Assembly (NCBI GenBank): GCA_002169625.2 | Contig: NHJW02000040.1 | Span: 19,002-54,195, forward strand | Length of the DNA: 35,194 bases | Reading direction: 5' to 3' | Source of the DNA: Gammaproteobacteria bacterium TMED225 | Lineage (GTDB): Bacteria > Pseudomonadota > Gammaproteobacteria > Magnimaribacterales > D2472 | Shown: positions 9,815 to 33,876 of the stretch, piece by piece | Layout: each line of letters begins with the position of its first letter | Position numbering within the stretch: position 1 is the first letter of the stretch | Notes under the pieces: model-generated | What the model was told of the DNA's origin: nothing | The model's database searches: none | Seen by the model: only the letters and a program-made list of their open reading frames with translations | Made by a program: the position numbers and the translations under genes

Positions 9815-9845
9815 TATCTATAAACTAAATGCTATTATATTGTTT

Positions 9846-15522: not shown

Positions 15523-15531
15523 TGGTAAGAT
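15523..15531 (+). promoter_or_regulatory. Possible extended -10 promoter for lptF
   Basis: TGGTAAGAT fits the extended -10 form TGnTAnnaT. Transcription would start about 4 bases before the lptF ATG at 15542, giving an almost leaderless mRNA. No convincing -35 is seen, and the region is AT-rich, so the call is tentative. Confidence 0.35.
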
Positions 15532-18158: not shown

Positions 18159-18160
18159 TT

Positions 18161-18169
18161 TGGTATAGT
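18161..18169 (+). promoter_or_regulatory. Possible extended -10 promoter for the peptide transporter gene
   Basis: TGGTATAGT matches the extended -10 form TGnTATAaT at five of six core bases plus the TG. It stands 18 bases before the transporter ATG at 18188, in a divergent spacer of only 29 bases shared with the RDD gene. Confidence 0.45.
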
Positions 18170-18187
18170 ACTAAATATTAAGAAAAA

Positions 18188-19781: not shown

Positions 19782-20892
19782 GATTTTTCAAAATTTTTGT
19801 ATATATATCTTTAAGAGCCCATAACTCACTTATTTTTATATGCTCATCAATTTGATGAATTGTCTTATTAACGGGCCCCAATTCAATAATTTCAGTATTC
19901 ATTTTAGCTACAAAGCGTCCATCAGATGTCCCACCTTTTGCATTTTGTTCTGGAAAGTAGCCAGTAACTTCTTTTACAGAATTAGAAACTATATCTTTAA
20001 AAAAATTATTTTTTGTATAGTAAGGATTTCCGTTTAAATCCCATTCTAGGTCATAATTTAAATCGAGTTCATTTAAGATAGACTCAAACTCATTTTTAAG
20101 ACTTTTTTCATTTGATTCAGTTGAAAATCTGAAATTAAAAGTTAACTCAAGATCTCCTGGGACAACATTATGAGCTCCTGTCCCTGAGTTAATATTAGAA
20201 ATTTGAAAACTTGTAGGATCAAAAGCATCATTGCCATTATCCCAAATTTTTTTATTTAATTTTGAAATCAACTCACCTGATAAAAGGATTGGATTTATAA
20301 CTTTTTCTGGATATGCAATATGACCCTGCTTACCAAATATTTTTAAATGACCACCAAGAGATCCTCTTCTTCCAACTCTTACACAATCCGCAACTTTTTC
20401 ACTTGATGTTGGCTCACCAACCAAACAGAAATCAATAATTTCATCATTTTGAATCATATCTTCAATGATTTTATCTATAAATCCATCCTTAGAAGTACCT
20501 TCTTCATTGGATGTAATCAACATTCCTAAATTGAAGTTAAGTTGCTCAGAAGAATTAATAAATTCTTTTGCAGACTCAATAAAAGCAGCGACAGATGCTT
20601 TCATATCTGCTACACCTCTTCCATATAAGATATCGCCATCAATAGTTGCGGAAAAGGGTGGATATTTCCATTTTTCTTCAGGTCCTGTAGGAACGACATC
20701 CGTGTGGCCTAAAAAACAAAATAATTTTCCTGGAGTATCAGTAGTTGCATATAAGTTTTCTACGTTAAGATAATTGATTCTTTTACAATTAAAACCTAGT
20801 TTAGTAAGCTCTTCTTCAAGAAGATCAAAACAACCCATATCGTTTGGCGATATAGATTTTATCCTTAGTAAATTTTGAAGAAGCTCAATCAT
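19765..20892 (-). CDS. dapE: DapE, succinyl-diaminopimelate desuccinylase
   Basis: A zinc amidohydrolase of the M20 family that releases LL-diaminopimelate in lysine and cell-wall synthesis. With the ATG at 20892 the protein has 375 residues, the E. coli length. Metal and catalytic residues are visible with an offset of 4: His63 and Asp65 (LGHTDVVP), Asp96 (GRGVADMKAS), Glu130 and Glu131 (SNEEGTSKDG), and a C-terminal His in NKTIHQIDEH. The frame stays open 51 bases further upstream, but that would run into dapD and adds residues absent from the family. Its ATG overlaps the dapD stop by 8 bases, so translation is likely coupled. Confidence 0.96.
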   Translation of the reverse strand: MIELLQNLLRIKSISPNDMGCFDLLEEELTKLGFNCKRINYLNVENLYATTDTPGKLFCFLGHTDVVPTGPEEKWKYPPFSATIDGDILYGRGVADMKASVAAFIESAKEFINSSEQLNFNLGMLITSNEEGTSKDGFIDKIIEDMIQNDEIIDFCLVGEPTSSEKVADCVRVGRRGSLGGHLKIFGKQGHIAYPEKVINPILLSGELISKLNKKIWDNGNDAFDPTSFQISNINSGTGAHNVVPGDLELTFNFRFSTESNEKSLKNEFESILNELDLNYDLEWDLNGNPYYTKNNFFKDIVSNSVKEVTGYFPEQNAKGGTSDGRFVAKMNTEIIELGPVNKTIHQIDEHIKISELWALKDIYTKILKNLNQVS

Positions 20893-21793
20893 TATTATGT
20901 AATTCTTTATTAAGTTTTGAAATTTTTTTGTTTTGTTTCGCAATTACTTTTCCAGTGGTTGAATCTCTGAAAAATAATGTATTTTCTATTCCAGATATTT
21001 CAGAGGCTTTTATTAATTTAGACTCTTTACCATCTAAAATTGTAATTTTTGTCCCGGCTGTAATATATAAACCTGCTTCAACTGTACAATTATCACCAAG
21101 TGATATTCCAATTCCTGAATTTGCTCCAAGAAGACAATTATCTCCAATAGAAATTTTGGTATTATTACCTCCTGATAATGTACCCATTGTACTTGATCCG
21201 CCTCCAAGGTCAGTATTAGCACCAATAACCACACCAGCAGAAATTCTACCTTCAATCATAGCCTTCCCAAGAGTGCCTGCATTAAAATTCACAAATCCCT
21301 CATGCATAATAGTAGTTCCTTCACTCAAGTATGCACCAAGACGAACTCTAGATGAATCGGCAATTCTAACTTTTTGTGGAACAATGTAATCTGTCAAACA
21401 AGGAAATTTATCGATTGATCTTATGTATAGTTCATTTTTATTAATTTTTGACGCAATTAGTCTTTCATCAATTTCATCTAGAGAAATCGGGCCTTGGTTT
21501 GTCCAAACAACATTTGGAATATTTAAAAATAATCCATCTAAATTTAAGGAATTGGGTAAAACTAGTTTATATGATAATAAATGAAGTTTTAAATAAGCAT
21601 CTATGATGTTTTCAATAGGTCTTTCTAAATCCTTTTCAGTCCAACTAATTTCAACTATTTTCATTGAGTTATCATTAATATTAGTTATTTCTCCCGAAAT
21701 TTTTTCTTCTCCAAATTCTACGTAAGGAAAAAAGACATCAAGCATCTCTCCTTTAGACGAAATATTTGCAATTCCCTTAGTAATAATTTTCAT
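20885..21793 (-). CDS. dapD: DapD, tetrahydrodipicolinate N-succinyltransferase (long Pseudomonas-type)
   Basis: Transfers succinyl from succinyl-CoA to tetrahydrodipicolinate in the succinylase branch of DAP/lysine synthesis. At 302 residues it is longer than E. coli DapD (274). The layout, with an N-terminal alpha/beta domain (about 1-130) followed by a left-handed beta helix (VRLGAYLSEGTTIMHEGFVN, then GGGSSTMGTLSGGNN and GANSGIGISLGDNC), matches the form seen in Pseudomonas aeruginosa. The FVNFNAGTLGKAMIEGRIS block is diagnostic of that group. It lies 15 bases after glnD and overlaps dapE by 8 bases. Confidence 0.95.
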   Translation of the reverse strand: MKIITKGIANISSKGEMLDVFFPYVEFGEEKISGEITNINDNSMKIVEISWTEKDLERPIENIIDAYLKLHLLSYKLVLPNSLNLDGLFLNIPNVVWTNQGPISLDEIDERLIASKINKNELYIRSIDKFPCLTDYIVPQKVRIADSSRVRLGAYLSEGTTIMHEGFVNFNAGTLGKAMIEGRISAGVVIGANTDLGGGSSTMGTLSGGNNTKISIGDNCLLGANSGIGISLGDNCTVEAGLYITAGTKITILDGKESKLIKASEISGIENTLFFRDSTTGKVIAKQNKKISKLNKELHNND

Positions 21794-21808
21794 TGTTAGA
21801 TTATAGTT

Positions 21809-25244: not shown

Positions 25245-26366
25245 GTGTCATTTAAAGCCATTTTAGCACTTGAGGATGGAAGTGTATTCCATGGAAAGGG
25301 TTTTGGGAAAGAAATTTTTGATGTTGGTGAACTTGTATTTAATACCTCAATGACAGGATACCAAGAGATCATCACAGATCCATCCTATAAAAAGCAGATT
25401 ATTACTTTCACACATCCTCATATTGGAAATACTGGCATAAATAATGAAGATAGTGAATCACAAATTATTCATGCGTCTGGAATCGTAGTCAAAAACTTAT
25501 GTCAAAATCCGAGTAGTTGGAGATCTGAAATTTCGCTAGATAATTTTTTAATTAAAAATAAAATTATTGGCATCGCAGATGTTGATACTAGAGCTATAAC
25601 TTCTATGCTAAGAGAGAAAGGCGCAATGAATTGCTGCATTGGTGCTTTGTCTATGATATCTGAAAATGATGCAATTGATGCAGCCAAAAAATTTGATGGC
25701 CTTAATGGGATGGATTTAGCAAAAGATGTATCAACGGGGCATAATTATGATTGGAACGAAGGCGTGTGGCCTGACAATTGTAAATCTTCGGAATCTCATC
25801 CAGTGATTGCTTATGATTATGGAATTAAAGAAAATATACTTAGGCTTCTAACCAATCATGTTGGCAAGGTGAAAGTTGTAAATGCTAAGACTCCATTTGA
25901 AGAAATTATAAAACTAAAACCAAAGGGTATTTTCTTATCTAATGGGCCAGGTGATCCAGCTCCCTGTGATTATGCAATTGAAAATATTAAAAAGTTTCTT
26001 AAAAAGAAAATACCAATCTTTGGTATTTGCCTTGGACATCAACTTCTTGCATTAGCAGGCGGAGCAAATACTTATAAAATGAAATTTGGACATCATGGCG
26101 CCAATCATCCCGTACAAGATATCTCTTCAGGAGGTGTATTTATTACAAGCCAAAATCATGGATTTGCTGTAGATGCTGATACCCTTCCTCAAAATATTAA
26201 AGTTACTCATAATTCTTTATTTGACAAATCTCTTCAGGGTATTGAATTTACAGATAGACCTGCTTTTAGCTTTCAAGGACATCCAGAGGCAAGTCCAGGA
26301 CCTCAAGAGATTCAAATCTTATTCAAAAAATTTAGTTTAATGGTCGACGAATATGCCAAAACGTAA
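25245..26366 (+). CDS. carA: CarA, carbamoyl-phosphate synthase small (glutaminase) subunit
   Basis: Hydrolyses glutamine and passes ammonia to CarB for carbamoyl phosphate, the precursor of pyrimidines and arginine. The 373 residues comprise an N-terminal CarA domain ([20 protein letters not shown]) and a class I amidotransferase with nucleophile Cys262 in [24 protein letters not shown] and the late [10 protein letters not shown] supply the other catalytic residues. The GTG start is supported by AAGGAAG. It is the first gene of a plus-strand run to secG and overlaps carB by 14 bases. Confidence 0.97.
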
Positions 26367-29300
26367 GGACATATCCTCAGTATTAATAATTGGTGCAGGG
26401 CCAATTATCATTGGTCAGGCATGTGAATTTGACTACTCGGGTGCTCAAGCATGCAAAGCACTTAAAGAAGAAGGTTTTAGAGTGATTCTTGTTAATTCAA
26501 ATCCAGCAACAATCATGACAGATCCACTTCTAGCAGATGCAACGTATATTGAGCCAATTCATTGGAAGTCTGTAGAAAAAATAATTGAAAAAGAGAAACC
26601 TGATGCAATTTTACCAACTATGGGTGGTCAAACTGCTTTGAATACAGCTTTAACACTTGATAAAAAAGGTATTCTTAAAAAACATAATGTTTTTTTAATT
26701 GGAGCAAACAGAACCGCTATTGATAAGGCTGAAGATAGACAGTTATTTGATGAGACAATGCAAGCAATAAATTTAGATACTCCAGCCTCTGGAATAGCAC
26801 ATTCTATGAATGATGCTCTTGAAGTGCAGAAAAAAATTGGGTTCCCCTGCATTATTCGACCGTCTTTTACAATGGGAGGAACTGGAGGAGGGATTGCTTA
26901 TAACATTTCTGAGTTTAAAACTATATGTGAAAAAGGACTTGAATTGTCGCCAACAAATGAACTTTTAATTGATGAATCTCTTATCGGTTGGAAAGAGTTT
27001 GAAATGGAAGTTGTCAGAGATTGTGAAGATAACTGTATTATTGTTTGTTCTATAGAAAATCTTGATCCTATGGGCATTCATACCGGCGACTCAACTACTA
27101 TTGCACCAGCTCAAACACTAACAGATAAAGAATTTCAAATAATGCGCAATGCTTCATTTAAAATTCTCAGAGAAATTGGTGTAGATACTGGTGGATCAAA
27201 TGTTCAATTTGCCGTAAATCCAGAAAACGGAAAGATGGTAGTAATAGAAATGAATCCAAGGGTAAGCAGATCATCAGCTTTAGCATCAAAAGCAACAGGA
27301 TTTCCAATAGCAAAAGTGGCTGCATTATTATCAGTTGGATATACACTAGATGAGCTTAAAAATGACATCACAGGTGGACAGACACCAGCATCATTTGAAC
27401 CAAGTATTGATTATATTGTTACAAAAATACCAAAATTTGCTTTTGAAAAATTTCCACAAGCAAGTCCAAAACTAACAACTCAAATGAAATCTGTTGGAGA
27501 GGTAATGTCCATAGGATCAAATTTCCAGGAGTCATTTCAAAAGGCTCTATGCAGTATGGAGGAAGGACTTAATGGTTTGAACTCTTTATCTAAAAATGGC
27601 TCATTTCCATCGGATGATAAGATTAAAAGCGAACTAACAATTCCTGGCCCAAAAAGACTTTTTTTTCTTGGTGATGCTATTCGAAAAGGCTGGTCATTAG
27701 AAAAAATTTATTTACTTACAAAAATTGATTATTGGTTTTTAGAACAAATTGAAGAATTAATACATAAGGAAAATGAAATTAAGAATATGAAGATTGAAGA
27801 GCTTGATCATCAATATCTTCTAGACGTCAAAGAAAAAGGTTTTTCTGATAATAGAATTGCAGAAATCCTCAAGGAAAATGAAGAAAAAATAAGAGAACAT
27901 AGACAAAAGTTGGGTATAAATCCTATTTTCAGAAGAGTTGATACCTGCGCAGCTGAATTTGCTACCTCAACATGTTATATGTATTCATCATACGGAGGAA
28001 GCTGTGAAAGCAATCCATCTGATCAGAAAAAAATTCTAGTTCTGGGCAGCGGACCAAACAGAATTGGCCAAGGTATTGAGTTTGATTATTGTTGTGTTCA
28101 CGCTTCTTTAGCCATGCAAGAAGAGGGATTTGAATCAATTATGGTTAATTGTAATCCTGAGACAGTATCAACTGACTATGACGTTTCAAATAGATTATAT
28201 TTTGAGCCAATAACAGCTGAAAAAATATTGGATATAATTGAAGTTGAAAAACCTGAGGGAGTCATTATCCAGTTTGGTGGTCAAACCCCACTCAAACTTG
28301 CTGATATATTATCTGAAAGGGGGGTTAATATTTTAGGAACTAATGTTGATGCTATTGATAGATCTGAAGACCGAGAAAGATTTCAAGAATTAGTAAATAA
28401 ACTAAATTTAAAACAACCCTCTAACGCTACGGCCAAAAACTCAAAAGAAGCTCTTATTAAAGCTGAAAAGATAGGATTTCCAATTGTAGTAAGACCATCA
28501 TATGTTCTTGGTGGCAGAGCGATGCAGTTGGTAAATAATATAAAAGAACTTAAGAAATATCTTGATGAGGCTGTAGAGGTTTCTAACAGTAAACCAATTC
28601 TACTTGATAGTTATTTAACAGATGCTATTGAGGTAGATGTTGATGTTGTTTCTGATGGCGAAAATATCCAAATTGGAGGTATTCTTCAGCATATTGAGCA
28701 GGCTGGTATTCACTCTGGTGACTCTGCGTGTTCATTACCTCCATATAGCCTCAACAATGAAATACAAGATGAAATGAAAAATCAAGCAATAAATATTGCC
28801 AAAGAACTTAATATTATTGGTTTGATGAATATTCAATTTGCAGTTAAAAATGATGAGGTCTTTATAATAGAAGTTAATCCACGTGCCTCTCGAACAGTAC
28901 CTTTCATATCAAAAGCTATTGGAAATTCTCTAGCAAAGGTTGCATCAAAGGCGATGATTGGTAGAAGTTTAAAAAATCAAAATTTTAATTCTATCCTTCC
29001 TAAAAATCTATCGTTTGTAAAAGAAGCTGTAATGCCATTTGACAAGTTTCCGCACGTAGATCCTATTTTAGGTCCTGAAATGAAATCTACTGGAGAAGTT
29101 ATGGGTATTGGCCCAAATTTTGGCGAAGCTTATTCAAAGGCTCAGAAAGGTGCTAATAAAGTTTTAAGAAGATCTGGAGAAGTCTTCATAAGTGTAAAAA
29201 AATCAGATAAAAAATATCTTGATAAATTTGCCTCAGAAATAATAGATTATGGGTTTAATATTGTTGCAACTTCAGGTACTGCAGATTATATTGAAAATCT

Positions 29301-29565
29301 TGGTCTGCCCGTTAAAAGAGTTAACAAAGTTACCGAAGGAAGGCCTCATATTGTTGATAAACTTTTAAATAATGAAATCGATTTAGTCATTAATACCACA
29401 GAAGGAACCCAGTCTATAGAGGATTCTTCATCCATTAGACAAAGTGCTTTAAGAAATAAGATTTTTTGCACAACTACAATGTTTGGTGCTTTTGCAATAA
29501 TTGAAGCATTAAAAAGCAATGAAGACAATTGGACTTACAGTACTCTTCAAGAATTAAATAAATAA
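26353..29565 (+). CDS. carB: CarB, carbamoyl-phosphate synthase large subunit
   Basis: Makes carbamoyl phosphate from bicarbonate, ammonia and two ATP. At 1070 residues it has the full E. coli architecture (1073): two homologous ATP-grasp halves, starting with [20 protein letters not shown] near residue 11 and [17 protein letters not shown] near residue 563, the oligomerisation domain between them, and a C-terminal MGS-like allosteric domain (about 935-1070) where ornithine and UMP/IMP bind in E. coli. The ATG at 26353 overlaps the carA end by 14 bases. greA follows after 25 bases, a gap that carries its own promoter-like sequence. Confidence 0.98.
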
Positions 29566-29575
29566 TTTATCAAAT

Positions 29576-29584
29576 TGTTATAAT
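29576..29584 (+). promoter_or_regulatory. Extended -10 promoter positioned for a leaderless greA transcript
   Basis: TGTTATAAT is a perfect match to the extended -10 consensus TGnTATAAT. It ends 6 bases before the greA ATG at 29591, so the usual start distance puts +1 at or next to the A of the start codon. No Shine-Dalgarno site precedes this ATG. There is no good -35, which extended -10 promoters can lack. Confidence 0.6.
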
Positions 29585-29590
29585 GCTCTA

Positions 29591-30067
29591 ATGAGTAGAA
29601 CACCACTAACAAAAGAAGGTGAAATTTTAATAAAAGAGAAACTTAATAATTTAAAATTTACACAAAGACCTGAGATATCTCAAGCAATAGCTGAGGCAAG
29701 AGCTCATGGTGATCTTAAAGAAAATGCAGAATACCATGCAGCAAAAGAACTTCAAGGATTAGTTGAGGCAAAAATAAATGAGATGGAAAATGCTCTGGCT
29801 AATGCTCAGGTTATAGACGTTAAGGAGATTCCTGAGACTGGAAGAGTTGTTTTTGGTGCAACCATAAAAATATATGATATTGATAATGATACCGAGATTA
29901 GTTATAAAATTGTTGGAAACCTTGAATCTGATCCCGAAAGTGGATCAATATCTATTGATACTCCAATCGCAAAGACTCTTGTTGGTAAATTTGTAGGTGA
30001 TGAAATAAGTATTGAAACTCCATCAGGAATTCTCAATTACGAAATTCTGGATGTAAAACATAAATAA
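29591..30067 (+). CDS. greA: GreA, transcript cleavage/elongation factor
   Basis: Rescues backtracked RNA polymerase by stimulating cleavage of the transcript 3' end. The 158 residues match E. coli in length: an N-terminal coiled coil (about 1-75) carrying [18 protein letters not shown], with the acidic tip, and a C-terminal FKBP-like domain ([13 protein letters not shown] onward). The start is fixed by the conserved opening MxxxPxTxxG (here [10 protein letters not shown]). The carB-greA order followed by rlmE and ftsH is standard for gammaproteobacteria. It may be transcribed from carA, from its own extended -10, or both. Confidence 0.97.
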
Positions 30068-30633: not shown

Positions 30634-32544
30634 ATGAGTAGTTTTGTAAGAAATTTAGTGGTTTGGGTAGTTTTAGGTTCATTGATGGTCTATGTGTTCA
30701 ACAACATAGAAAACTCATCAGCAAGGGAGCAAATTAGTTACAGTCAGTTTAAGCAGGAAGTTCTCTCCGATAGAGTAGCTAAGATTACTTATAAAGGTGA
30801 TCAGATGACGATTATTGGAGATAGACTTGATGGGTCTAAGTTTGAAACCACTCATCCAATCTTTAAAAGAGATGAAGCTGTGGAAACCGCGATAGAAGAA
30901 AATGGAATTATCGCTGTTTACGAAAAAATTGAACAACCTTCAATATTCTCTCAACTTCTTGTTGGCGCTTTTCCAATAATCTTACTTTTAGCGATATTTT
31001 TCTTTTTTATGCGTCAGATGCAAGGTGGAATGTCCGGCAAAGGCGGTCCAATGTCGTTTGGTAGGAGCAAAGCTAAATTAATGGAAGGTGGCAAAGTTAA
31101 GACAACTTTTAAAGATGTTGCTGGATGCGAAGAAGCTAAACAAGATGTGCAAGAGCTAGTTGATTTTCTTAGGGACCCAACAAAGTTTCAAAAGTTAGGC
31201 GGTAAAATACCTAGAGGAGTTCTTATGGTTGGTCCTCCTGGCACTGGTAAAACCTTAATAGCAAGAGCAGTTGCAGGAGAGGCTAAAGTTCCTTTCTTTA
31301 CAATCTCAGGTTCTGATTTTGTTGAAATGTTCGTAGGTGTTGGTGCATCTAGGGTTAGAGATATGTTCGATCAAGCAAAGAAACAATCTCCTTGCATTGT
31401 ATTTATTGACGAGATTGATGCTGTTGGAAGACACAGAGGAACTGGTCTAGGCGGTGGCCATGATGAGAGAGAACAAACATTGAATCAGCTATTGGTAGAA
31501 ATGGATGGTTTTGAGGGAAATGATGGTGTGATTGTTATTGCAGCCACTAATAGGCCTGATGTGTTAGATCCAGCGCTCTTAAGGCCAGGAAGATTTGATA
31601 GACAAGTTGTTGTAGATCTTCCGGATATCAGAGGCAGGGAAGCAATATTAAAAGTTCACATGAGAAAAGTTCCACTTGCAGCTGACGTTGATCCCCTTGT
31701 TATTGCTAGAGGAACTCCAGGATTTTCAGGCGCAGATCTTGCAAATTTAATAAATGAGGCTGCACTTTTTGCAGCAAGATATTCTGACAAAAAAATTGAT
31801 CAATCTCATCTAGATTTAGCAAAAGATAAGATCATGATGGGTGCTGAAAGAAAATCAATGATTCTAAGTGAAGAACAAAAAAGAATCACCGCATTTCATG
31901 AGGCAGGTCATGCGATAGTTGGTAGGCTTTGTCCAACTCACGACCCAGTATATAAAGTTACAATCATCCCAAGAGGAAGAGCCTTAGGTGTAACAATGTT
32001 TTTGCCTGAAGAAGATACATATATGCAAAGTAAAGAGTATCTCCTAGGAAGAATAGCTACACTTTTTGGCGGAAGGATCGCTGAAAGCATAATCAATGGC
32101 AATCAGGGTATTACGACTGGTGCATCAAATGATATTGAAGTGGCAACTGGAATTGCAACAAATATGGTTACAAAGTGGGGCTTCTCGGATGAACTAGGAA
32201 CAATTAAATATGGAGAGGATGAAGGAAGTCCGTTTTTAGGTAGGTCTGCTTCAAATCCTGCTCAAATTAGAAGTGATCAAACATCTAAACTAATTGATTC
32301 AGAAGTTAAATCTATAATTGATACGTGTTATAAAAGAGCTGAAAAATTGCTAAAAGAAAACTTAGACAAACTAAATGTCATGGCAGATGCTCTATTGAAA
32401 TATGAAACAATTGATGCTCCTCAAATTGATGACATTATGGCAGGAGCAACACCTAGAGAACCAAAAGGATGGTCTGACGATGATTCATCTAAAGGTAAAA
32501 CTTCTAAGAAATCTTCAATTAAAGGTGCTGCAGAAGAGTTATAA
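30634..32544 (+). CDS. ftsH: FtsH, ATP-dependent zinc metalloprotease
   Basis: A membrane-anchored AAA+ protease that degrades unneeded membrane and regulatory proteins; in E. coli it sets lipid A levels through LpxC. Of 636 residues, membrane spans are at about 6-24 and 107-127 with a periplasmic domain between. The AAA module has Walker A GPPGTGKT at 200-207, Walker [10 protein letters not shown] and the second-region-of-homology Arg residues ([12 protein letters not shown]). The zinc site HEAGH is at 422-426. The C-terminus is a Lys/Ser-rich tail. It lies 3 bases after rlmE and 9 before glmM; folP, often between ftsH and glmM, is absent. Confidence 0.98.
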
Positions 32545-32553
32545 TACTTTTCT

Positions 32554-33876
32554 ATGAGTTTAAAATTTGGCACTGATGGTATAAGGGGTCCCGTCGAAAG
32601 CCTAATAACCCCAGAGGCATGCTTGAAAATAGGATATGCAACTGGTCGAGTTATGAAAGAACTTGGCTGGGAAACTGTTGTTATAGGTAAAGACACTAGA
32701 ATTTCGGGTTATATGCTTGAATCAGCTCTTCAAGCTGGATTTATATCTTCAGGTGTTAATGTTCAACTCGCTGGCCCTTTACCAACTCCTGGTGTCGCAT
32801 ATCTTACCAAAACATTAAGAAACAAATTTGGAGTTGTAATAAGCGCATCTCATAATGATTTTCTTGATAACGGAATCAAAATATTTAATGATAATGGAGA
32901 AAAAATTTCTAGAGATATTGAAAGAAGAATTGAGAAATATATTAAGTCTAAAATAATTCCTGTAGAAACATCAAAAATAGGTAAAGCCTACAGATTTGAT
33001 GAATCTGGACCGAGATATATTGAATTTTGTAAATCAATTGTCCCTTCAAATATATCATTTTCATCTTTAAGAATTGTTATAGATTGTGCTAATGGAGCTT
33101 GCTATAAAGTGAGTCCAAAGGTTTTTGAAGAGTTGGGAGCAGAAGTCATAATAATAGGGAATGAGCCTGATGGATACAATATTAACAAAGGCTGTGGATC
33201 AACAAATCCTGATTTAATTAGAACAAATGTTGTTAAGCATAGAGCAGACTATGGTATTTCTCTTGATGGTGATGGAGATAGAGTGATCATAGCAGATCAA
33301 AGAGGTGAATTACTCGATGGAGATGATCTATTATATATATTAGCTTTTTCTAATCCTAATAGAACAGGTCCATGGTCTGGAGTAGTTGGAACCAAAATGA
33401 GCAATCTTGGCCTAGAAGAAGGTATAAAAAAACTTGGATATAAATTTGTTAGAGCAGATGTTGGCGATAAGCATGTTAGTGAAGCACTACTTAAACATGG
33501 ATGGATGCTTGGAGGTGAAACCTCTGGTCATATTATATGTAAAGATTTAGTTAGCACGGGTGATGGAACAATAGCGGCATTAAAAGTAATATCTTCCTTA
33601 TTAATATTAGATAAAAAGCCTAGCGATGTTTTATCAAATTATACTAAAATTCCTCAAATTAATAAGAATATAAATGTTAAAAACAAAGATATAGTTAATG
33701 ATAAAGAATTAAAATCATTAATTAAAAGTATTGAATCTGATATTACCGTTGGTAGAGTTTTAGTGAGGCCGTCGGGAACAGAATCAAAAATTAGAATTAT
33801 GATAGAGGCACAAGAAGAGCGAGTAGCTGAAAAGTTTTCAGAAGATATTTTAAAAATTATTGAATCAAAATCATAG
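32554..33876 (+). CDS. glmM: GlmM, phosphoglucosamine mutase
   Basis: Converts glucosamine-6-phosphate to glucosamine-1-phosphate for peptidoglycan and lipid A. It has 440 residues (E. coli 445). The phosphorylated active-site serine is Ser99 in ISASHND, the metal loop is SLDGDGDR, and the sugar-binding loop is GGETSGH. The phosphate-binding C-terminal loop RPSGTESKIRIM is present. In E. coli and Pseudomonas it follows folP; here it follows ftsH directly. Its TAG is immediately followed by the tpiA ATG. Confidence 0.97.
   Translation: MSLKFGTDGIRGPVESLITPEACLKIGYATGRVMKELGWETVVIGKDTRISGYMLESALQAGFISSGVNVQLAGPLPTPGVAYLTKTLRNKFGVVISASHNDFLDNGIKIFNDNGEKISRDIERRIEKYIKSKIIPVETSKIGKAYRFDESGPRYIEFCKSIVPSNISFSSLRIVIDCANGACYKVSPKVFEELGAEVIIIGNEPDGYNINKGCGSTNPDLIRTNVVKHRADYGISLDGDGDRVIIADQRGELLDGDDLLYILAFSNPNRTGPWSGVVGTKMSNLGLEEGIKKLGYKFVRADVGDKHVSEALLKHGWMLGGETSGHIICKDLVSTGDGTIAALKVISSLLILDKKPSDVLSNYTKIPQINKNINVKNKDIVNDKELKSLIKSIESDITVGRVLVRPSGTESKIRIMIEAQEERVAEKFSEDILKIIESKS

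Follow-up and report, generated by a model that had tools for sequence, protein, structure and literature searches.

The greA gene of a SAR86 genome, belonging to the same genus as SAR86A, is preceded by an extended -10 element, TGTTATAAT, which ends exactly six bases before the ATG, and the hexamer is kept at this distance in most of the genomes searched from one family of SAR86, a marine lineage known mainly from sequence. Our preferred reading, to which we give a probability of roughly 0.82, is that a housekeeping-sigma extended -10 promoter produces a leaderless greA mRNA here, and that greA is one case of a minority class of such starts in SAR86. The window, by which we mean the whole analysed stretch of 35,194 nucleotides, comes from an assembly of 0.95 Mb in 41 contigs.

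The greA start and its -10 element

The features around the greA start are the following.

26353..29565, plus strand: carB, co-directional with greA and upstream of it (NF003671, 1692.8 bits)
29566..29590, plus strand: carB-greA spacer of 25 nt, containing a putative promoter (from the spacing comparison)
29575-29577, plus strand: TTG, the first letters of the conserved block, which starts one base before TGTTATAAT
29576..29584, plus strand: extended -10 TGTTATAAT, just 5' of greA (from the sequence, column conservation and 84 genomes)
29585..29590, plus strand: six-base spacer between the -10 and the greA ATG, its length mostly kept, its letters not
29591..30067, plus strand: greA, transcription elongation factor GreA, 158 aa (from the translation and NF001264)

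The TATAAT core occupies 29579-29584 and is separated by GCTCTA (29585-29590) from the ATG at 29591-29593, the placement that the sequence-only reading had given. The carB stop codon lies at 29563-29565. That reading had also described greA as lacking a Shine-Dalgarno (SD) site, and indeed no GGAG, AGGA or GAGG was found in the 20 nt preceding the ATG. The start assignment, which had been argued from the conserved N-terminus, is fixed because the protein aligns from residue 1 to the GreA model (NF001264, 210.8 bits, protein residues 1-157 to profile positions 1-157) and because greA of relatives begins at the same residue. The nearest named greA locus is that of SAR86 cluster bacterium SAR86A, which is 82% identical over residues 1-157. 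A TTGACA-like -35 element is not evident at greA, where columns -35 to -30 hold the A-rich tail of carB. A mini-ORF, ATG CTC TAA, which arises from TATAATG and overlaps the greA ATG, was considered and rejected; the G that it requires is present in just 20 of 49 sequences, so it is not conserved.

From this arrangement we infer promoter activity, a transcript start and leaderless translation at greA. A housekeeping-sigma extended -10 promoter sitting in the short carB-greA spacer would lead RNA polymerase to start on the A of the greA ATG or one to two bases from it, the predicted start being 29591, the A itself. The resulting greA mRNA, probably extending into rlmE and ftsH, would have neither leader nor SD site and would be translated via its 5'-terminal AUG. 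Since greA lies 25 nt behind the co-directional carB, read-through from carAB probably adds a leadered form of the greA message. The leaderless interpretation of greA that the sequence-only reading put forward is supported by the comparisons below.

Conservation and origin of the greA site

A whole-genome pattern search for TATAAT, six nucleotides, ATG and loosely specified GreA codons was carried out over 202 genomes of the order, with genome G077 left out. The arrangement was found in 84 of the 106 genomes of the window's family, 95 of which have a greA match. The other three SAR86 families, with 96 genomes of which 83 have greA, gave no match. A reversed control pattern gave no matches in the same search. 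Eleven greA-bearing genomes of the family were missed by the pattern; of the six that were read, three have the hexamer at a gap of 7 nt and one at 5 nt, and the remaining two are a genome with TACAAT at 9 nt and L131, which has a gap of 6 nt with a codon mismatch.

The region upstream of greA was read directly in 53 genomes of the family, comprising the window, L003 and L004, 30 loci from the best genus and family matches and 20 loci of nine other genera. Of these, 52 carry TATAAT, at 6 nt in 48, at 5 nt in one and at 7 nt in three; the sole exception, L122, carries TACAAT 9 nt before the greA ATG. For L092 and L095 the script had taken an upstream in-frame ATG as the start, and correction by eye places TATAAT at 7 nt in both (the uncorrected script count was 50, with 48, 1 and 1 at 6, 5 and 7 nt). 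TGn precedes the hexamer in 51 of the 53, and in L125 and L126 the TG directly abuts it. Over the 49 distinct upstream sequences, which include the uncorrected rows of L092 and L095, the TTG columns carry 1.28-1.67 bits, the next column 0.27 and the TATAAT columns 1.51-1.75, and the six spacer columns carry 0.16-0.59. High information in TTG and TATAAT beside low information in the spacer argues for an extended -10 held at a constrained distance rather than for a generally conserved spacer. L001 and L002, which repeat G001 and G014, were excluded from the column bits and the gap counts and included in the carB-greA distances.

No TATAAT occurs within the 30 nt scanned upstream of greA at 20 loci of the other three SAR86 families. 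In gammaproteobacteria outside SAR86 it is likewise absent from the 74 loci that could be resolved, which L063 and L068 could not. As far as these genome sequences go, the greA arrangement is confined to one SAR86 family.

The distance between carB and greA follows the same division. In the window's family it is 21-29 nt at 46 of 51 resolved loci, two of them duplicate genomes, and at most 18 nt at the other five, with four further loci unresolved. It is 4-17 nt in the second SAR86 family (9 loci), -4 to 20 nt in the third (7 loci) and 0-2 nt in the fourth (4 loci). The commonest outgroup value is -4, with distances of up to 49 (49 resolved and 27 unresolved loci). The 25-nt spacer of the window thereby exceeds those of all 20 loci of the other SAR86 families and of 46 of the 49 resolved outgroup loci. 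The simplest reading of these distances is that a start close behind carB, or overlapping it, was replaced by a promoter-bearing spacer.

Shine-Dalgarno sites and the 16S rRNA 3' end

A lost anti-SD was considered as the reason for missing SD sites and was rejected, the 16S 3' end CACCTCCTTA, with the anti-SD intact, being present at all 12 genus loci that were fetched. A 16S match was found in 23 of 34 genus genomes and none in the window's own assembly, for which the anti-SD status is taken from relatives. The positions of SD-like tetramers form a hump some 5-10 nt ahead of start codons. In the sample of the window's genome such a tetramer is present in 47 of 278 genes, most genes being without one. 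None of the 96 sites at gaps of 6-8 nt in the four genome samples described below also has an SD tetramer, which is weak evidence because the hexamer itself takes up most of the SD space. SAR86 thus appears to retain SD initiation beside a leaderless-type class, and with the anti-SD intact, leaderless starts would be a minority second route.

-10 elements near start codons in genome samples

The sequence-only reading had proposed that -10 hexamers close to start codons be counted genome-wide against shuffled sequence. We used about 376 kb of the window's genome (about 40% of it) and 394-400 kb each of G007, G086 and G112; G112 stands for the second SAR86 family, and the third and fourth families are represented by greA regions only (7 and 4 genomes), not enough for a count of this kind. 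Genes were taken as ORFs of at least 100 codons picked by length, with the first ATG as the start and no gene finder. Starts less than 60 nt from the end of a stretch, or with ambiguous upstream bases, were dropped, which reduced the window's genome from 331 to 278, G007 from 365 to 359 and G086 from 358 to 356. A site was a hexamer of the form TAnnnT, with at least 5 of 6 consensus bases, ending 5-8 nt before the ATG, and the expectation came from 300 dinucleotide shuffles. The counts were as follows.

Window's genome: 25/278 at gap 5-8 (shuffles 14.6 ± 3.7, reached by 1/300); 9 genes at exactly 6 nt (shuffle mean 3.8); maximum over gaps 12-44, 8; exact TATAAT at gap 5-8, 10/278 (shuffles 2.9)
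G007: 31/359 (17.1 ± 3.9, reached by 0/300); 13 at 6 nt (4.3); maximum 9; exact TATAAT 10/359 (2.4)
G086: 32/356 (19.8 ± 4.1, reached by 0/300); 13 at 6 nt (5.0); maximum 10; exact TATAAT 10/356 (3.4)
G112: 32/346 (12.6 ± 3.6, reached by 0/300); 20 at 6 nt (3.1); maximum 6; exact TATAAT 5/346 (1.7)

An excess is found in all four SAR86 samples, and it amounts to 3.4-5.6% of genes. E. coli K-12 (250 kb) gave 0/213 at gap 5-8 with 2.4 expected from shuffles, AT-rich outgroup loci gave 0/81 with 2.1 expected, and exact TATAAT at this gap was found at 0/277 outgroup starts (shuffles 0.4). Taken alone, the window's genome gives a relaxed profile without one sharp peak, gap 2 (10 sites) and gap 9 (9 sites) equalling or exceeding gap 6 (9 sites); it is chiefly the pooled genomes and the exact TATAAT counts that supply the sharp peak. 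A set of 36 gap-6 sites from the family consists of orthologues of a few genes and was excluded as independent evidence.

The excess depends on the neighbouring gene. In the four samples pooled, with 100 shuffles, sites precede 17/92 genes with a divergent neighbour at most 60 nt away (shuffles 6.4) and 33/219 with one further away (16.5), 27/283 co-directional genes 1-40 nt apart, the situation of greA (13.4), and 23/313 co-directional genes further apart (14.9). Co-directional genes that overlap or abut show no excess (13/356, shuffles 13.6). For divergent genes the excess is about 27 of 311, or about 9%. Promoters would be expected to give just such a distribution, with the excess largest at divergent genes and absent at overlapping ones. 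No clear signature of TGn or of a -35 emerged for the class as a whole: TGn is not clearly enriched (12/120 vs 22/376) and -35-like matches are mildly so (13, 9 and 8 of 120 vs 16, 17 and 20 of 376 for spacers of 15, 16 and 17).

The SAR86 bacteria of the window's family probably use leader-free messages for a small share of their genes, a probability that derives from the retention of the greA -10 at the same distance in dozens of genomes. The suggestion that leaderless starts may be general in this genome holds insofar as an excess is detected; 'general' is too strong, because the detectable excess is about 4% of genes, or about 9% of those with a divergent neighbour. G112 has the sharpest 6-nt peak of the four samples (20/346 genes). 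None of nine second-family greA loci has the site, so leaderless-type starts in that family must involve other genes.

Alternative explanations

The greA element could be a real promoter that does not serve a leaderless message, either starting transcription a few bases into the greA ORF or mainly serving rlmE-ftsH, with greA translated from carAB read-through without an SD site. The position of greA 25 nt behind carB in the same direction would allow this, as would the small number of genes in the genome sample that have an SD-like tetramer (47/278). We nevertheless regard it as unlikely: most genomes keep the element 6 nt from the ATG even though the letters of the spacer vary, and an excess at 5-8 nt precedes many unrelated genes, which a promoter for later genes alone would not need. 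A somewhat less likely account takes the mRNA to be leadered and the AT-rich block to act in translation, as an unstructured or S1-binding region whose likeness to a -10 comes from base composition. Passages of PMC5397173 discuss whether AT-rich bias between -20 and -10 may mark S1 sites, the genome sample has 31% GC, and chance readily supplies hexamers of this kind (in about 15 of 278 genes at gap 5-8). The conserved letters TTG-n-TATAAT, however, include a G and a free position, and overlapping co-directional genes, which need a ribosome signal too, show no excess, while divergent genes show the largest. As for chance, an AT-rich genome does occasionally give TATAAT near a start codon, with about 2.9 of 278 genes expected to have it at gap 5-8 by shuffling, but 84 genomes hold one distance while the flanks differ, and none of the 96 genomes of the other three families has the site even though these too are AT-rich (34.6-36.2% GC in their samples); we consider this explanation very improbable.

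We return to the preferred reading, in which greA has an extended -10 promoter for a leaderless message and would be one instance of a minority leaderless-type class in a lineage that otherwise keeps SD sites and an intact anti-SD. A broader and more tentative picture, for which we would put the odds a little short of even, is that leaderless initiation is a standing second route in streamlined SAR86, used by about one in ten of the genes that face a divergent neighbour. It would let promoters fit spacers of 20-30 bp, including near-palindromic -10s that could start two divergent genes without, or nearly without, leaders, and greA would be one family's switch from a start close behind carB to a leaderless promoter of its own.

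Comparison with known leaderless systems

Leaderless initiation of this kind, marked by a -10 close to the start, is already known from many descriptions, and SAR86 is a lineage for which we found no earlier report: a limited literature search found none joining SAR86 and leaderless, and nothing on topic for SAR86 with Shine-Dalgarno. Bacterial genes of the TA-led (leaderless) type were described by Zheng et al. in 2011 (PMC3160421), whose abstract and section 7 do not mention SAR86 or greA. As in the TA-led genes of those parts of the paper, greA lacks an SD site and has a -10-like hexamer some 10 bp upstream of the start; low-GC genomes there show TATAAT, several of them with a preceding TG peak. 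The gammaproteobacterial TA-led cases given there are, in contrast to SAR86, mostly from Xanthomonadales and Legionellales. Set beside the TA-led description, greA shows the -10 placement about 6-7 nt ahead of the start codon, the missing SD and the correctly assigned start, and the genomes show the position-specific enrichment across many genes, the last on samples of about 0.4 Mb per genome and modest in the window's genome alone. The 16S 3' end without CCUCC that marks a non-SD genome is not found, judging by relatives.

Passages of PMC12340547 describe a -10 motif about 6-7 bp before ORFs in Deinococcus-Thermus, kept between orthologues of the clade as the greA site is in one SAR86 family, and transcript levels that rise after it, whereas the SAR86 evidence comes from sequence. 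In D. radiodurans, according to the same passages, nearly one third of genes have the motif, in the form TANNNT; in SAR86, an AT-rich gammaproteobacterial lineage, the excess is a few percent and the hexamer at greA is TATAAT. Closer in lineage are the leaderless mRNAs of enterobacteria, also gammaproteobacteria, which start at the AUG and in Salmonella also within 6 nt of it without an SD (parts of PMC3293720); such genes are few there, mapping having found just 18 in E. coli, 10 in K. pneumoniae and 33 in Salmonella, as stated in portions of PMC3415461 and PMC3293720. Unlike the enterobacteria, the SAR86 samples have a predicted excess of 3.4-5.6% of genes, and E. coli shows none in the same computation. 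GeneMarkS-2 results quoted in a part of PMC9581028 predict leaderless transcription in 21.6% of bacterial species.

Should a few percent of SAR86 starts be leaderless, the lineage's start-site annotation, promoter models and expression estimates would have to be revised. One could then also test how a universal gene acquired a leaderless promoter within a single order, and greA would serve as a test of whether such a start releases the gene of a transcription factor from a metabolic operon.

Other genes with the arrangement

Among the four samples, with ORFs of at least 80 codons used for orthologue comparisons, there are 471 reciprocal best pairs, 281 of which have aligned starts. Both members have a gap 5-8 site in 12 of the 281, about 4-fold above the 2.9 expected if the two were independent. 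Four control gap ranges gave 1, 4, 3 and 3 such pairs with 0.3-1.3 expected, 2.3- to 3.6-fold; that these also exceed independence is due to the sequence that relatives share. Two or more genomes have sites in groups that include greA, dapD-like, glmM, coaE, yicC-like, aroC, trxB and guaB. The coaE site is also present in G112, as TATCAT; for trxB and guaB the best-matching ORFs of G112 lack a site but are shorter. Ten further genes were scanned; two are without an NCBIfam name, and the eight named are dephospho-CoA kinase, TonB-dependent receptor (its models scoring well under the cut-off), chorismate synthase, glutamate 5-kinase, thioredoxin reductase, IMP dehydrogenase, pseudoazurin and YicC. 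No functional theme was seen among the ten.

In the window, the further sites and two of their genes are these.

9833..9838, plus strand: TATTAT, 7 nt before the ATG (9846) of a holD-like gene (from the sequence)
15523..15531, plus strand: TGGTAAGAT, 10 nt upstream of the lptF start codon (15542), which predicts a leader of about 4 nt
18165..18170, minus strand: TACTAT, 6 nt before the ATG (18158) of an RDD-family gene, overlapping a plus-strand TATAGT
20885..21793, minus strand: dapD-like gene, tetrahydropyridine dicarboxylate N-succinyltransferase (TIGR03535, 387.7 bits, below the cut-off of 441.5)
21800..21805, minus strand: TATAAT, 6 nt before the dapD-like ATG (21793), kept in family loci
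32540..32545, plus strand: TATAAT, 8 nt upstream of the glmM start codon (32554) and sharing bases with the ftsH stop (TTATAAT)
32554..33876, plus strand: glmM, phosphoglucosamine mutase (TIGR01455, 518.9 bits)

The dapD-like site recurs as TATAAT at 6 nt in 11 of the 15 further loci of the family that match dapD; it is not in L125-L127, and in L131 the dapD alignment begins only at residue 45. It is absent from all 13 loci of other SAR86 families, so that this site, too, is confined to the window's family. The gene directly upstream of glmM is ftsH; in L131 the upstream gene ends earlier, yet TATAAT stays, at 7 nt.

The -10-like hexamers that the sequence-only reading had noticed at holD-like, RDD and lptF are present, at 7, 6 and 10 nt, but are weaker than that of greA. 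An orthologue of the holD-like gene was not found in the relatives' loci compared. The lptF element resembles a promoter whose message would have a leader of some 4 nt, and one relative, G086, has TGATATGAT at the same 10-nt distance. At the RDD gene TACTAT has 4 of 6 consensus bases; it is kept 6-7 nt upstream in five relatives and is not in L131, L204 or L205.

The RDD gene and a divergent POT-family transporter gene are separated by 29 bp (18159-18187) that contain a near-palindrome, GGTATAGTACTA, and G086 and four genomes of another genus retain TATAGTACT there. The near-palindrome looks like one -10 common to both strands. In G112 a 20-bp divergent spacer, AAATAAATTATAATTTGTTT (L237:11572-11591), has TATAAT exactly 6 nt before both opposite-strand ATGs and is apparently one palindromic -10 for two leaderless genes; the plus-strand gene there resembles a ferredoxin by eye.
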